From Pseudofabraea citricarpa (lineage: Eukaryota; Ascomycota; Leotiomycetes; Helotiales; Dermateaceae), in assembly GCA_029641185.1 (NCBI GenBank), contig JAPWGK010000008.1:248001-312000 (forward strand): a DNA stretch of 64,000 nt. The letters run 5' to 3'. Below are positions 9,959 through 59,530 of this stretch, one piece after another; position 1 is the stretch's first letter, and each line of letters opens with the position of its first letter. Under the pieces are notes generated by a model. The model was not told where the DNA came from. It did no database searches and saw only the letters and a list, made by a program, of their open reading frames with translations. Position numbers and translations under genes: made by a program.

Positions 9959-10093
9959 GGCGCTATGGCGGAGTGGTTAACGCGACGTACGTTAACTCCT
10001 GTAAATTAATCCCGGACCACCATCACTAACATTCATCAAGGCCCTGCTAAGGCGTTTCTTTCGAGAGCAAGAGTTCGAATCTCTTTGGCGTCG
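9959..10093 (+). tRNA. tRNA-Ser(GCU) with a 54-base insertion in the anticodon stem
   Basis: After removal of 9987-10040 the sequence folds as a complete 81-base type II tRNA. Acceptor stem 9959-9965 pairs with 10086-10092 (two G-U pairs); D stem GCG/CGC; anticodon stem ACGCC/GGCGT, five Watson-Crick pairs. The loop is CTGCTAA with anticodon GCT at 10046-10048, the variable arm has a three-pair stem, the T arm is AAGAG-TTCGAAT-CTCTT, and the discriminator base G10093 is the one required by seryl-tRNA synthetase. A box (TGGCGGAGTGG) and B box (GTTCGAATC) are intact and an eight-T terminator follows. The insertion is not at the canonical position after base 37 but after base 29. With the insertion in place no anticodon stem forms that has U33, so removal seems necessary for function. 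CCA is not encoded, as normal for eukaryotes. Confidence 0.85.
9987..10040 (+). other. GT-AG intron-like insertion inside the tRNA gene
   Basis: The 54 bases begin GTACGT, contain CACTAAC eleven bases before the end, and finish CATCAAG. Length, 5' site, branch-like site and AG match the spliceosomal introns of protein genes in this window; the argininosuccinate-synthase-like gene, for instance, also has GTACGT. Because a G lies at both junctions, the boundaries could shift by one base with the same product. No canonical tRNA intron in the 37/38 position is present. Confidence 0.65.
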
Positions 10094-10099
10094 TCTGAA

Positions 10100-10107
10100 T
10101 TTTTTTT
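10100..10107 (+). terminator. RNA polymerase III T-run terminator
   Basis: Eight T residues, seven bases after the tRNA discriminator base. Confidence 0.85.
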
Positions 10108-20622: not shown

Positions 20623-22257
20623 TTAGAGCTCATTGTGGACGGTCTTTGCCTCCTCGACAACTGGCTCATCCGTCTTAGGCTCTGCCTCCTTCGGCGCAGT
20701 GGTCTCAGTTGTCTCATCAACAACCACCTCTTCAATTATGATAGGACTGTCCCCATCAACAATTGGCTTCTGTTCCTCGGTGGCTGGCTCTTCGACAGGC
20801 TCTGGCTCAGTGGGGATGAGACCCTCTGGTAGTTTTTCCTTTGCGCCCTCGCCAAGTTTGATGGCATCAACCCAGTTCTCAATGGCCTCGATGGTGACAT
20901 CTTCCTCGCTGACATCTGAGCCCTTCTTTGGAAGAGATCTCCACCATCCTCTGCGGCCGTTCACAGCAACAAGCTCATTGGCGCCTGTAAGGCCGATCGC
21001 TGGCTTGAGTACCGAGACAGCAGTGTTGTCACTGGGCACGACGTAAAATGGTAGGCTATTGCGTTTGGCGATAGTATGTTTATGTGCGATCTCCGCAAGT
21101 CCTTCTAAAGCCTTGGTGGAGACAACATCGTGGGTTTCAGGAACAAGGGCAAGGATGCATGTGCCGGTCTTCTCACCCAAGCACTGCTTCCGGAATTGTG
21201 CTTCTGTGGCCAGGGTGGGAATCGGCGGTGCTGGATCTGGAAGAACAATTGGCTTCTCAACGGGAACCTCTGGATCAGGTGATTCAGTAGGCTTTGCAGA
21301 ATCTTCCAATACCTCTTCTGTTGCGCTAGCGGCTGCTGAGGAACCTTCTGACTTGGCGTGCGAGGCAGATGCCTTCTCGAAAGCCTCCTTTGCTTTCTTA
21401 GGATCCGTCTTGGAGTCCTTCTTCTTGGGGATCTTGACCTTGGGTGGTGCAGGGTCGGGATTGGGCGCGGCGACTTGCGACAAGAACTTGACCATGTCAT
21501 CCTTCTTCAGCTCGCCGTCATAGACGATGCCTTCTGCCTCTTTCCCTCCAGGAAGGAGAATGAGAGTTGGGAATTTGGTGACGCCAAAAAGCTCCACCGA
21601 TGCCTTGTTTGTGTTTCGGATCTGTCCAACCTTAATGCTTCCCTTGAAATCAACCGCAACTGCCTTCAAAAGAGCACTTGTTGTGCCCTTCTCCGTGAAT
21701 AATAGAGCCTTCGCTGTGTCATTTGCTTCCTCCAAGAATGCCTCGAGATCCTTATCCGTGATTCTCTTGACCAGGTTAGGAATCTTGTCCTTCACAGCTT
21801 CGACGATTCCCTTGGCAGTTCGCGGTCCCTGGTAGTCTTCCACAACTGGGCGTCCAGGCTTAGATCCAGGCTTGACAATCTTGAGAGTAGGGAATCCTTG
21901 TACGCCAAAGGTACCGCAGAATTGTTTGTTCGCATCCTCATCGCAGTTTACGGCTGCGACTTTCGCGATGCCCTGGAGGCTTTGCGCAGCCTTTTCGTAA
22001 GCAGGCTGTAAGCTCTTGCAGTGGCCGCACCAAGGCGCATAGAATTCGACAATCTGCCATCACACATCAGCTCTGGTGCTCTATAATGGGGAACTCAGAC
22101 TTACAGATGTGTGGTTGGATTGCGCAATAAGGCGATCGTAATTCTTGCCATCGACCTGCAGGACTGCGGAGCTCTTGGGGTACAGGCCGGCATTAACAGG
22201 CAAGGCACAAAGTAAAGCAGCTGCCGCAGCAGCGGTAAAGGCAGTGGCGTGCACCAT
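20623..22257 (-). CDS. ER thioredoxin-domain protein, PDI-like
   Basis: Exon 1 is 22105-22257 and exon 2 is 20623-22053 on the minus strand, 527 residues. A signal peptide (MVHATAFTAAAAAALLCALPVNA) is followed by a thioredoxin domain with the active site APWCGHCKSLQPAY (Cys60, Cys63) and the cis-proline segment QGFPTLKI. A second thioredoxin-like region without CxxC lies around 125-280 (SVELFGVTKFPTLILLPGG), then a third region and an acidic Glu/Pro/Thr-rich tail from about 430. The last four residues are HNEL, a fungal variant of the HDEL retrieval signal, so the protein should reside in the ER lumen. This is the domain plan of the fungal P5/Mpd1-like disulfide isomerases that form or shuffle disulfides in secreted proteins. 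The intron has GTAAGT and lies eight codons before the active-site Cys. Confidence 0.9.
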
Positions 22258-32292: not shown

Positions 32293-33538
32293 ATGGTACG
32301 TGCCCTATTCCCCCTCCCCCCTTCCAAGTCATCAATCATGTTAACCTCCGCAGCGTGAACGAACCATCGAAAGCTTTGACCACATTGCCAAACTCGGCAA
32401 GAAAGATGCTCCCGTCGTGACCATGTTCAGCGGCGGCCTAGACAGCACATACCTGCTCTTCCGACTCCAAGGGCTGGGCTTCACCAACATCCACGCCGTG
32501 GCCGTCGATGTCGGGGCGCCGGTCGACGAGGAGGCACTCACCAAGAACGCGGCACACTTCGGGGCCAGCTTCAAGTGCCTGGACGGGCGGGAGCTGTTCG
32601 TCAAGCAGGGCGTGCTGCCAGCAATCCGCGCGCACGCAAACTACATGGGCCTGAACCCGATCAGCAGCTCGTTGACGCGACCCGTCATCGCGCGGCTGAT
32701 CACCGACTACGCCAAGGGCATGGGCGCCGAGCTGCTGCTCCACACGGCCAACCTGTCGCAGAACAGCCTGCCGCGCCTCAACAACAGCATCGGCCGCTGC
32801 GGCTTCGCGGGCGACTTCGGGAGCCCCTACGTGCACTCGGTCGTGTCGCGCGAGAAGAAGGCCGAGGAGCTGGCTGCCGTCGGCCTGGCGCTCATGTCGG
32901 AGCGCAAGCTGAGCGGCGACGAGAACCTCTGGTGTCGCGAGTTCGAGGACGGCCCCGTCAACGATCCCGAGGCCTTCTGCATCCCCGAAGACGCTCACGA
33001 GTGGACGCGACGCCGCGACGATGCCGATGCGAACGAGACCAAGAAGCTCTCGCTCAGCTTTGAGAACGGCAGTCTCGTGTCTGTCGACGGGAACACACTC
33101 CCCCTCATCGACGCCATCGCCCTGTTGAATACTGAGGTGGGCAGATTTGGCCACGGCCGATTCGTCGGGCTTGAGCCTCTCAGCACTGATCACAAGGTCT
33201 TGGAGGTTCGCGAAGCTCCCGCCGCTGCCATCATCATGGATGCGCTCCGCCATCTCGAGATCGCGACGCTGGACAGCACCACGCTCGAGTTGAAGCAGCA
33301 GCTCGAGCACAGATGGGTCCGCGAGGCCGTGTCCGGTAACTGGGGAAGCGTCTGCCATAGCATGTGCGACGCGGCGATCGCGTCGGCTTCGAATGGCGTC
33401 GGTGGCACCGTCACCTATGATATCGATCACCGCCGTTTCCAGCCCTGTTCTATCGTCGCTCAACATCCTCGCTATGTTCGGAATCGCGACGATTGGGAAC
33501 TGGAACGCTCGCAGCTGCTGTACGGCAAGCGCCACTGA
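32293..33538 (+). CDS. Argininosuccinate synthase-like enzyme with altered substrate region
   Basis: Exon 1 is only the ATG (32293-32295); a 58-base GTACGT...GCAG intron follows and exon 2 (32354-33538) carries the rest, 395 residues in total, the usual length of argininosuccinate synthase (ASS). The adenylating PP-loop is present ([11 protein letters not shown]), as are [11 protein letters not shown] and [13 protein letters not shown], equivalents of the ASS segments that frame the substrate pocket, and the late block [18 protein letters not shown] with [10 protein letters not shown]. However, the highly conserved glycine-rich GCTGKGNDQVRFE segment of true ASS reads [16 protein letters not shown] here. 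So it should adenylate a ureido or similar oxygen and add an amine, but probably not citrulline plus aspartate. It is divergent from the 2OG oxygenase and next to the proline block. A specialised-metabolism role is inference. Confidence 0.82.
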
Positions 33539-46378: not shown

Positions 46379-48199
46379 ATGAATAGGCACGCAGCTTCCA
46401 GATTTTCGGCCAAGACAAATTTCCAAACAACGTTTAGAAGATTTGTGGGAACATCTGGCGCATATAGATTACCTAAGCCATACAATGAGAAGAACGTGAG
46501 GCATCCCTCTCACTGAAAAGAATTGAACTAAACATCATAAAGCTCGACTATGCCAAATCATCTCCAGAGCGTAGAAAACTTCAAGATGCTTTAGCTCAGT
46601 TGCGATCAAAGCTCCCTCTTTCGGTGCCAACTTTACTTAACGGCAAAGAGATAAAAGCGAACTCGAACGCAAAGGTATTGTCACAGCATTTGCCAGCCGA
46701 GAAGTCTACAGTTCTGGCAACATATACACCAGCAACAGAAGAAAATGTAGCCGCAGCTATTGAGTCCGCCCTTGCAGCGAAGCAAGAGTGGGCTGATATG
46801 TCCTTCTATGATCGTGCTGCCATTTTCCTACGAGCGGCAGACCTCGTTTCCAACAAGTATCGTTTCGAAATTATGGCAGCCACAATGCTTGGGCAGGGCA
46901 AAAATGCCTGGCAGGCGGAGATCGACGCGGCTGCTGAAACGGCAGATTTCTTCCGATTCAACGTTTCTTTTGCGCAAGAAATCTTGGAAAGACAACCAAC
47001 TATCAATGCCGAGGGCCATGCTGGGTTAGTACCTAACTTTCTAGCCATCTATGATATTGGTGGCTAACTTTGAGCCCAGGCGAACTGATTGGAGGCCACT
47101 GGAAGGATTCGTCTACGCTGTTTCGCCCTTTAACTTTACAGCTATTGGTGCTAATCTCATCTCTGGCCCAGCACTGATGGGTAATACTGTTGTGTGGAAG
47201 CCTTCGCCTAGCTCTCTCTATGCAAGCCATCTGCTCTACAACATCCTTCTTGAGGCTGGTCTTCCTCCAAATGTGGTACAACTCGTGAATGGCGACGCGG
47301 AGATGGTCACTCGTCAAGTATTCGATCACCCCAGCTTTGCAGCTTTGAACTTCACTGGATCCTCGGATGTATTTCGTGAACTCTATGGCAAAGTTGCTGA
47401 CGGAATCAGGAGTAAGAAGTACAAAGACTTCCCACGTCTGGTTGCAGAGACTTCTGGCAAGAACTTCCACCTACTCCACAATTCGGCCGATGTGTCGAGC
47501 GCAGTGAAGCACACCATCAGAGCTACATTCGAATATTCTGGTCAGAAGTGTTCAGCATGCTCTCGGATATACGTGCCAGAGAGCCGTGCTCGGCAGTTTT
47601 TCGACGAGATGAAGCAGGAGTTAAGTCATGTCAAGATGGGCCCACCCGAGGATTTTGATAGCTTCTTGGGACCTGTTATCAATCAGCAAGCATTCGACAA
47701 GGTTACAAAAGCAATTGACTTAGCAGACAAAGATCCTCAATTGGAGAAAGTCCTAGGTGGATCATACGACAACAAGACGGGCTACTATATTGAGCCAACT
47801 ATTTACGTGGCCAAAAGCTTGGAACATCCAATGTTCAATCAAGAACTCTTCGGTCCAGTCCTGATCGCTTATGTCTACCCGAATGCTGAGTTTGATACGC
47901 TTCTTGACAAGATTGACAAACAAGGTGGTGGATTCGCACTGACCGGCGCCATATTTGCGAATGATCCCAAGGCTATCAGGTTGGCGGAGGATAAATTGCG
48001 ATATGCCGCAGGAAACTTCTACATCAACTGCAAGACAACTGGCGCGGTAATTGGCCAGCAATCTTTTGGCGGAGCAAGAAGTAGTGGTACCAATGATAAG
48101 GCTGGAAGCTCTGACTCGTTGAGACGTTTTGCATCACCAAGGACATTGAAAGAAGAGTTCAACAGATTGGATTCAGTATTGTACCCTAGCAATCTTTAA
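46379..48199 (+). CDS. Delta-1-pyrroline-5-carboxylate dehydrogenase, mitochondrial
   Basis: Exons 46379-46495, 46543-47024 and 47080-48199 encode 572 residues, the normal fungal P5CDH length. The Arg/Ser/Thr-rich N-terminus without acidic residues for 36 residues looks like a mitochondrial presequence. ALDH features: EGFVYAVSPFNFTAIGANL, GNTVVWKPSPSSLYAS, the NAD-site FTGSSDVFRELY, LVAETSGKNFHLLH (conserved Glu) and the catalytic cysteine in FEYSGQKCSACSRIYV; GPVLIAYVY and FYINCKTTGAVIGQQSFGGARSSGTN end the fold. It oxidises P5C/glutamate-semialdehyde to glutamate, the second step of proline breakdown, corresponding to prnC. Confidence 0.95.
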
Positions 48200-57641: not shown

Positions 57642-59530
57642 TTAAGCGTAAAGCTTCTTCTCATAGCTCTCCATGTTTACACCTCCCTCAAGCTGTGCAC
57701 TGGCGGTTCTCAACTCAAAGCGAGTGCCACCGTTCTTAACAGACTCGTGGAGTGCCAAAAGGCTCTTCTGGCCACAGTCCTGGAGAGAGTGCTGAAGACC
57801 AGCAGCAAGGTACGGAACGAACTTTGTCACGGATCTAAGGATAATCAGCGCTAGAAAATGGAGTCATGCAAAAGTGGACCTACCCTCTGTGTGCTACGGC
57901 GCCAGCTACACCCTGTGCAACGAGAACGCTGTCACCTTCGGAGAAATATCTGGCGGTTCCAGCATTGCTCTTCTGGCTATCCTTGGCACCTGCACCGGCC
58001 TTCTTGTCTTGCATTGCATCAATGCTGCCCATACCACGATAAGCGTTGACAAGCTTTCCTTCGCGGTTAACAAAGGAGGTTCCTGGCGACTCCGTAGTAC
58101 CAGCAAGAAGACCACCCATCATGATGGTGGTAGCACCCAAGGCCAAACCTTTGACAATGTGACCAACATTCTGGATACCACCATCGGCCATGCAAGGGAC
58201 GCCAAACTTGGCTGCGAAAGAGCTTACGTTGTAGACAGCAGCTGCTTGAGGTCGGCCAACTGCCATAACCTCCTGCGTAATACAAGCACTTCCGCTTCCC
58301 ATTCCGATACGAAGACCATCAACACCAGCAGCAATGAGAGAAGCTGCTTGTTCTCTGGTGACAACATTTCCTCCAATCACGTCAAGACCAGGGTATTTCT
58401 CCTTGATAAACTTGACCATTTCAATTTGGTACATGCTGTTTCCTTGACTGCTATCCAGAATGACGATGTCCAGACCAGCGTCAACCAACTTCTGAAGACG
58501 AATCTTATCCTCTGGTCGGGTACCAATTGCTGCAGCACAAATCAATTGCTTGGAGTCTGGTAGCTTGGATGCAAGCGGGAAGTGCTGGTGCTTGATTAAA
58601 TCGGAGCGAGAGATCATAGAAACTAAGTTACCACTCTTGTCCACGATAGGAAGCTTTCCCTTCTTGGACTTTGCGAGGATCTCGTTGGCCTCCTTGAGGG
58701 TTGTTCCATAAGCGGCAGTTGTCAAATCAGTAACCATGACTGAAGAAACCAAAGCATCGGTATCGAATTCGAATTGGATATCTCGGTTGGTCACAATTCC
58801 AATGAGCTTGGATCCTAGCTTGCCGTTTTCTGGAAAAGCAATGTCAGCCAATGATCTCCTCGAGATGTTCAAAAGTGCTAAGTAAATTGGCAATTTTTTT
58901 CATAAAGAGCATAGATTTGATCCCCACGACCTTGCGGTCAATACGGATGAACGAAAGTTATTTATCAATTTTGATAATCATAAAGATGCGAGGGAGGAAG
59001 AGTTCAGGATGGGGATGCTAACCTGTTACTGGGAAACCCCCGAAACCCCACTGCTCCTTCAAAGCCTTGACCTCGCCAACAGTTGCGTTGCGATCCAGAA
59101 CAACTGGGTCAAGGATGAAACCGTTCTCGAATCTCTTAACCTTTTGAACCATCTCAGCTTGCTCGTCGGCAGAGCAGTTGTGGTGGATGACACCCAAACC
59201 TCCCTGCAAAGCCATCTGCACCGCCATTTCGTGCTCAGTGACTGTGTCCATGGGGGATGAAACGAATGGAGTCTTAAGGGTAATGCGCTTTGTGACAGGT
59301 GCTTCTAGATCAACCTCGGAGGCAGGGAATCCGATATAACCTGGCAGAACAAGGAAGTCATTGTAGGTAAGACCGCCGTGCTTCTTGGAGTCAAGAAGCT
59401 CCTCAATTGCAAGACCATCGCGGGACTCGTACTCTTTCAGCACCTCCAATGCCTTGCTTGGGTCCAAGATGCTCTTGGAGGGGCCAAAGAAGGCCGACGT
59501 CCCATTAGCGGAGCCGTTTGTGTGAGGCAT
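57642..59530 (-). CDS. Inosine-5'-monophosphate dehydrogenase
   Basis: Minus-strand exons 59023-59530, 57884-58829 and 57642-57834 encode 548 residues. It catalyses the NAD-dependent oxidation of IMP to XMP, the committed step of GTP synthesis, in the cytosol. Segments: [36 protein letters not shown], a CBS pair (about 125-245) and the catalytic loop [19 protein letters not shown] with Cys352. Later come [33 protein letters not shown] and YRGMGSI, followed by the mobile flap ARYFSEGD; the C-terminus ends before the usual helix. The residue before the catalytic Cys is Ala, where yeast and human have Ile. Intron 1 is long for this window (193 bases). Divergent from the IQGAP gene. Confidence 0.96.

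Follow-up and report, generated by a model that had tools for sequence, protein, structure and literature searches.

In Pseudofabraea citricarpa, a tRNA-Ser(GCU) gene is interrupted by 54 bases that look like a spliceosomal intron. The gene lies in the stretch of 64,000 nucleotides analyzed here (the window) and has the genome coordinates C42:257959-258093. We regard it as very probably a working nuclear gene from which the spliceosome removes a U2-type intron. Judged by sequence, the window gene is one case of a genome-wide feature: at least 19 tRNA genes, this one included, carry 24 mRNA-type introns at 16 positions, in 18 combinations of isotype and position. We also think it likely that spliceosomal introns have spread through the tRNA genes and that Thr(AGU), perhaps all Thr decoding, and hence translation, have become spliceosome-dependent, with many pre-tRNAs needing the tRNA-splicing endonuclease too.

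In the proposed pathway, RNA polymerase III (Pol III) would transcribe tRNA-Ser(GCU) from the internal A and B boxes, and the ordinary spliceosome would excise the insert, an intron of the common (U2) type, via GT, CTAAC and AG. The anticodon-loop insert that 13 of the 19 genes have in addition would presumably be left to the tRNA endonuclease. With both kinds of intron in one gene, a single pre-tRNA would be handled by two splicing machines. We infer these steps, and the use of the products by the cell, from gene structures, splice signals and the conservation of paralogues.

Table 1. Features of the window and positions of the mRNA-type introns in tRNA genes of the genome
Feature	Window coordinates	Strand	tRNA position	Remarks
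tRNA-Ser(GCU) exon 1	9959..9986	+		acceptor 5' strand, D arm, anticodon-stem bases 1-2; identical in C42:662627-662761
A box TGGCGGAGTGG	9966..9976	+		matches TRGYNNARNGG 11/11; uninterrupted
Putative spliceosomal-type intron, 54 nt	9987..10040	+	28/29 (hand numbering)	second copy: same position, diverged sequence
5' splice site GTACGT	9987..9992	+		opening hexamer in 3/24 tRNA introns
Branch-site-like CTAAC	10026..10030	+		presumed branch A at 10029, 11 nt from intron end; ACTAACATTCAT exact in second copy
3' splice site AAG	10038..10040	+		AAG ends 6/24 tRNA introns
tRNA-Ser(GCU) exon 2	10041..10093	+		remaining anticodon arm with GCT, variable arm, T arm, acceptor 3' strand, discriminator G; 53/53 bases identical at C42:662709-662761
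B box AGTTCGAATCT	10072..10082	+		9/11 vs GGTTCRANYCC; uninterrupted
T8 run, presumed Pol III terminator	10100..10107	+		from sequence; T runs common downstream of interrupted genes
PDI intron	22054-22104	-		51 nt, GT-AG, CTGAT near end
P5CDH intron	46496-46542	+		47 nt, GT-AG, CTAAA near end
P5CDH intron	47025-47079	+		55 nt, GT-AG, CTAAC near end
IMPDH intron	58830-59022	-		193 nt, GT-AG, CTGAC near end
IMPDH intron	57835-57883	-		49 nt, GT-AG, CTGAT near end
Ser(GCU), two genes			28/29
Thr(AGU), four genes			19/20 (one), 23/24 (three)
Thr(CGU)			33/34
Thr(UGU)			26/27 and 45/46
Glu(UUC), two genes			49/50 (both)	one of them also in the D loop
Gly(GCC), three genes			53/54
Ile(UAU)			9/10 and 46/47
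Pro(CGG)			7/8
Leu(UAG)			54/55
eMet			23/24
Arg(UCG)			23/24 and 30/31
Ala(CGC)			15/16 and 67/68
Interrupted loci, part 1				window, L053, L067-L070, L072, L073, L075, L076, L088, L096
Interrupted loci, part 2				L097, L058, L130, L141, L162, L183 (with L226), first gene of the L076 pair with L227

An intron-like insert in the anticodon stem of tRNA-Ser(GCU)

The original prediction described a tRNA-Ser(GCU) gene split by an insert whose removal gives a good tRNA, and both parts held up. At gathering scores, the sole Rfam match in the window is the tRNA family (RF00005), at exactly 9959-10093 (38.6 bits, gathering score 29, E 1.4e-4). With positions 9987-10040 removed, ARAGORN called an 81-nt tRNA-Ser(gct) with a 7-bp acceptor stem (two G-T pairs), a 5-bp anticodon stem made up entirely of Watson-Crick pairs, and the long variable arm, discriminator G73 and GCU anticodon expected of this serine tRNA. 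An intron-free ARAGORN search of the unspliced 135-mer found no gene. The fold also places the insert, as had been claimed, in the 5' strand of the anticodon stem and away from 37/38, the canonical position of nuclear tRNA introns. It follows base 28, by our count, rather than base 29 as first given.

The insert starts GTACGTTAAC and ends CACTAACATTCATCAAG. The predicted splice signals, a GTACGT start, an AAG end and, 11 nt from that end, the presumed branch A of CTAAC, were all found, as were the intact A and B boxes and the T run of a presumed Pol III terminator (Table 1). Two other types of insert were considered and rejected. An intron in the anticodon loop is what ARAGORN draws if one is allowed there, and the anticodon stem of this fold is broken and thus worse. 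For a group I or II intron, the Rfam search at gathering scores found the tRNA alone in the window, and 54 nt is far too short for the catalytic core of either group.

Paralogues of the window gene

The intact tRNA-Ser(GCU) genes against which the original prediction was to be weighed do exist, and so does a second interrupted copy. When the 81-mer was used as a BLAST query on the entire genome (44.0 Mb in 43 contigs), four Ser(GCU) loci matched. Two are uninterrupted genes (C2:337485-337565 and C39:820514-820594) with the same anticodon arm as the de-introned window gene; because of them, the window gene alone need not be essential. They favor the view that the window gene is dead or dying, broken by a stray insertion, and that intact copies serve the cell.

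The second interrupted copy (C42:662627-662761), 405 kb from the window gene on the same contig, argues against this view. Its insert lies at the same base, all 81 of its exon bases agree with the window gene, and each copy is followed by a T run. The two introns align at 0.63 overall versus 0.49 when shuffled, a likeness that comes from their first bases, GTAYGTT, and their last, ACTAACATTCATSAAG. Their middles are at the shuffled level (0.44 versus 0.47), and the flanks (60 bases upstream and 40 downstream) align at 0.54 each, figures given without a shuffled yardstick. Identical exons, a diverged intron middle and kept signals form the pattern to be expected of a spliced intron between exons under selection. 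Gene conversion of the exons could be an alternative route to this pattern and could thereby mimic part of the conservation in dead copies.

Interrupted tRNA genes across the genome

The set of interrupted genes (Table 1) was assembled from genome patterns, BLAST and reading of the fetched loci, with tRNA positions numbered by hand. Gene counts are lower bounds: Rfam scored 63 of 1716 candidates and BLAST 40 of 63, two pattern lists gave ~100 matches each, of 257 and 101 places, and the CTAAC-pattern matches (79 places, two patterns) were fetched in part. Among 102 distinct tRNA calls, misparses included, the interrupted genes are a minority. By the hand numbering, none of the 24 mRNA-type introns lies at position 37/38. 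First exons can be very short, down to 7 nt in Pro(CGG).

Once de-introned, 19 of 19 sequences were called tRNAs by ARAGORN, 17 of them with the anticodon we expected; the other two, Thr(UGU) and Ile(UAU), were given other names, which we put down to the insert in their anticodon loop. One acceptor mismatch was seen by hand in de-introned Ala(CGC). Exon junctions were set from splice signals and tRNA fold jointly, so that GT-AG helped in part to place them; their freedom to shift is small, given the paralogues and the fold. Copies without a splice-like intron were met for Gly(GCC) (L104), Ile(UAU) (L098) and Glu(UUC) (L103) and, by reading, for eMet (L041, which ARAGORN called Thr and which has CAT) and Arg(UCG) (L004-L009). 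L104 and L098 have the same exon junctions as their interrupted counterparts (by eye), and the de-introned Glu and Gly paralogues differ solely in the anticodon-loop insert left in (by eye). For these five isotypes too, then, copies free of a splice-like intron fit the view that interrupted genes are dead.

Two further tRNA-like loci are not among the 19. In L191 (C16:221630-222080), the T arm is intact, a T run is present, and a long insert of ~120 nt near the anticodon is neither splice-like nor clearly canonical. L074 (C40:1109380-1109830) is His(GUG)-like, with a long insert that contains CTAAC and has no clear splice-like junction.

Splice signals and comparison with mRNA introns

All 24 tRNA introns are GT-AG, a retention that would be unexpected in dead genes, and 20 have the extended 5' splice site GTANGY. 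The opening hexamers are GTAAGT (11 introns), GTACGT, GTATGT and GTAAGC (3 each), and GTTAGT, GTAATT, GTCAGT and GTAAAT (once each); the closing triplets are CAG (17), AAG (6) and TAG (1). Length is 50-56 nt in 23 introns and 66 nt in one. YTAAY with a branch A 10-17 nt from the intron end was found in 23 of 24, the exception being the first Ala(CGC) intron. GT-AG ends with an extended 5' site, a branch site near the 3' end and the build of the host's mRNA introns are what a U2-type intron should have.

Ten of the 19 genes were chosen by a CTAAC pattern or as neighbors of such a gene, which favors CTAAC. The other nine were chosen without a branch-site motif: the window gene (from the first reading of the window), the second Ser(GCU) copy, Leu, Pro, Ile, eMet, the fourth Thr(AGU) copy, Ala and Arg, the last of which recurs among the CTAAC-pattern matches. 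Their 12 introns are GT-AG in 12 of 12 cases and have YTAAY in 11 of 12. As a stand-alone finder, the branch-site pattern was rejected. Its versions showed no enrichment over a backward control (5 versus 12, 35 versus 67 and 44 versus 52 matches), and several matches were not tRNA-like by eye (L071, L077-L080, L083, L085-L087, L089 and L090). The case therefore rests on tRNA context, and no weight is placed on motif counts.

Homologous proteins aligned to the window gave five mRNA introns in three genes, a small sample (Table 1). The best matches were the PDI (87%) and IMPDH (96%) of Phlyctema vagabunda and the P5CDH (90%) of Coleophoma cylindrospora, species that we take to be Helotiales or near kin. 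The claim that the insert resembles the mRNA introns of the window stands for the overall build, and for length in four of the five (47-55 nt); the branch site is looser in the mRNA introns (YTAAY in 1/5, CTGAY in 3/5, CTAAA in 1/5) and stricter in the tRNA introns.

Introns at one position in paralogues have ends that are alike throughout. The middles of the three Thr(AGU) introns at 23/24 are also somewhat alike (0.58, 0.64 and 0.66 versus 0.50-0.53 shuffled; P 0.065, below 0.005 and 0.005), and those of the two Glu and three Gly introns are not (0.48-0.55 versus 0.47-0.51 shuffled; P 0.115 or more). A single recent mobile intron family was not supported: the 24 introns, BLASTed mutually at E 0.05, gave matches of 10-14 nt alone, between paralogues or across isotypes. 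TTTT occurs in 1 of the 24 introns where 2.8 were expected (P 0.18), so selection against T runs within introns was not detected in this set.

Elsewhere in the window, an argininosuccinate-synthase-like reading frame (32345-33538; Pfam E 7e-22) lies in the GC-richest 2-kb stretch (0.56); both strands have long open frames there.

Promoter and terminator signals

A run of at least four T within 40 nt downstream was found for 18 of the 19 interrupted genes, the exception being the first of two tandem Gly genes, and a CAACAA-like motif within 40 nt upstream for 13 of the 17 whose upstream sequence was read. Among tRNA genes without such introns, the T run was found in 14 of 15 entries and the CAACAA-like motif in 12 of 15, or in 12/13 and 10/13 distinct copies, since three entries match one copy. 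At random window sites the frequencies were 14% and 4%. The A box matches its consensus fully in 17 of 19 genes and less well in Ile(UAU) and Ala(CGC). The B box matches GGTTCRANYCC at 9-11 of 11 positions in 16 genes and is damaged in Leu(UAG) (8/11); in eMet and Ala(CGC), where the script scored the wrong stretch, it is visible in the sequence. The introns mostly leave both boxes whole, and at Gly 53/54 the intron's terminal AG gives AG directly before TTCGATTCC. These promoter and terminator signals, with the conservation, suggest that the tRNA genes may be functional.

The loci might instead be parts of longer Pol II transcripts, with introns landing in tRNA-like sequence by chance. This would suit introns of mRNA type like the five of the window, and we give it next to no probability: 19 of 19 de-introned sequences are called tRNAs, and the T runs and CAACAA-like motifs around them far exceed what random sites show.

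The tandem Gly(GCC) genes (L076 and L227, C39:547844 to ~548160) each have a T-arm intron and an anticodon-loop insert. No T run lies between them, and they are perhaps one transcript.

Anticodon-loop inserts and the tRNA-splicing endonuclease

An anticodon-loop insert is additionally present in 13 of the 19 interrupted genes and absent from the two Ser(GCU) and four Thr(AGU) genes; that of Ala(CGC) was found by reading, as ARAGORN drew none. Over the fetched nuclear loci and the de-introned genes, ARAGORN drew 73 anticodon-loop inserts of at least 10 nt, at least 9 of them misparses of unspliced interrupted genes. GT..AG ends were found in 1 of the 73, a Thr(UGU) insert whose anticodon ARAGORN also misread; 3 nt of slack raised this to 2 by adding a Gly(GCC) insert. 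Counting the misparses, 13 of the 73 have YTAAY no more than 26 nt from their end.

This genome has many inserts of the endonuclease type, and ectopic tRNA introns are known at many positions (PMC4090602). Both points would fit a relaxed tRNA-splicing endonuclease that removes all inserts, as for the ectopic introns of Cyanidioschyzon merolae and nucleomorphs. We consider this highly improbable for two reasons: (i) 3 of 24 introns, the window intron not among them, have junctions that form a strict bulge-helix-bulge with 1 nt of slack, versus 4.5 expected by shuffling, and strict bulge-helix-bulge introns were rejected as being at chance level; and (ii) endonuclease sites need no GT...YTAAY...AG, and the anticodon-loop inserts almost never have GT..AG ends.

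Two other tRNA-like loci, L021 (C12:2107350) and L144 (C25:29580), have anticodon loops of seemingly 8 bases (TTTAACAA; by eye).

Thr(AGU) genes

A genome-wide pattern (any Thr anticodon loop with an intact T arm) matched 14 places. Four are Thr(AGU) genes, all interrupted; three are variable arms of Leu(CAA); and the remaining seven have 0-3 of 5 anticodon-stem pairs. De-introned, the four Thr(AGU) genes become one identical 72-mer, with introns at one of two positions. No intact Thr(AGU) gene was found by the pattern, the uninterrupted junction string was in no fetched locus, and BLAST, which scored 40 of 63 candidates, had no intact copy at its top, where one would be expected. A copy with an insert at 37/38 would be missed by the Thr pattern, and the claim is therefore limited to AGU. 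The assembly may lack an intact Thr(AGU) copy. Thr(CGU) and Thr(UGU) were met at one locus each, both interrupted.

An isoacceptor with four of four genes interrupted, identical exons and no intact copy among the loci found is hard to square with dead copies, and we hold death of the window gene by stray insertion to be very unlikely. The original prediction had offered three options. Spliceosomal removal is the one that draws support from the sequence; an unusual endonuclease and a non-functional copy are both disfavored by the paralogues and by the rest of the interrupted tRNA genes. Since the tRNA introns resemble mRNA introns, making some tRNAs of this fungus would probably require the spliceosome.

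Relation to known systems

In teaching, tRNA introns are the endonuclease's task and spliceosomal introns belong to Pol II. To our knowledge, the spliceosome has so far not been thought to be involved in tRNA making. Introns of mRNA type do occur in the U6 snRNA genes of some yeasts and fungi. U6, with the rDNA of ascomycetes, is the closest known system: its introns are likewise spliceosomal introns in a Pol III gene, whereas U6 has no tRNA fold, is a single kind of RNA and offers no isoacceptor without an intact copy. A yeast U6 sequence, used in a mixed query for the U6 of this fungus, gave no match. Canonical introns at 37/38, which the tRNA-splicing endonuclease removes, share the tRNA gene setting and co-occur with the present introns in 13 of 19 genes; the present introns lie elsewhere in the tRNA, resemble mRNA introns in length and carry splice signals instead of endonuclease sites.

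Among the papers listed by searches of the open-licence literature, none was a report of spliceosomal introns in tRNA genes. No word starting "spliceosom" occurs in the available main text of a tRNA-intron review (PMC4090602) or in that of the tRNAscan-SE 2.0 paper (PMC8450103), which deals with non-canonical introns for archaea. The nuclear rDNA of ascomycetes, mainly lichen fungi, is described as having spliceosomal introns (Bhattacharya et al. 2000, via PMC8527467), and PMC8527467, whose available text has no word starting "tRNA", reports that yeast removes such introns from Pol I transcripts. As described there, these are also spliceosomal introns in a structural RNA outside Pol II, in the same phylum; they differ in lying in rRNA made by Pol I, whereas the present ones lie in tRNAs with Pol III promoters, with exons down to 7 nt, in at least 19 genes and at 16 positions. 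The ectopic tRNA introns of C. merolae and cryptomonad nucleomorphs lie in D, anticodon and T arms, up to three per gene (PMC4090602, PMC3978253 and PMC9602550), and so resemble the present introns in position. Those sources ascribe them to the tRNA endonuclease, with a bulge-helix-bulge in C. merolae and no defined motif for many in Guillardia. They are as short as 3 nt, whereas the introns described here are 50-66 nt, GT-AG and nearly all with a branch site.

If the introns are spliced as proposed, the substrates of the spliceosome include compact Pol III RNAs that lack a cap and have exons down to 7 nt. The spliceosome would then have to be coordinated with the endonuclease, with tRNA folding and with the trimming of the ends, and would directly supply the translation apparatus. 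Several points count against spliceosomal removal: Pol III RNA has no cap, and the cap aids the first splicing step; some first exons are very short, as in Pro(CGG); the B box of Leu(UAG) is damaged, and the A boxes of Ile(UAU) and Ala(CGC) fit less well; an Ala(CGC) intron is without YTAAY, and its de-introned gene has the acceptor mismatch; and there are the two intact Ser(GCU) genes. The genes form a natural system with internal controls, namely identical exons with different introns, one isoacceptor with introns at two positions, and intron-free paralogues.

ARAGORN misparsed at least 9 of the interrupted loci. Finders that allow introns in the anticodon loop alone miss or misname such genes, so the tRNA sets of related fungi may be undercounted.

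Elsewhere in the genome, two mirror-image clusters of four Arg-type tRNA genes each lie ~111 kb apart (C12:2624-3940 and C12:113956-115272), perhaps as an inverted duplication.
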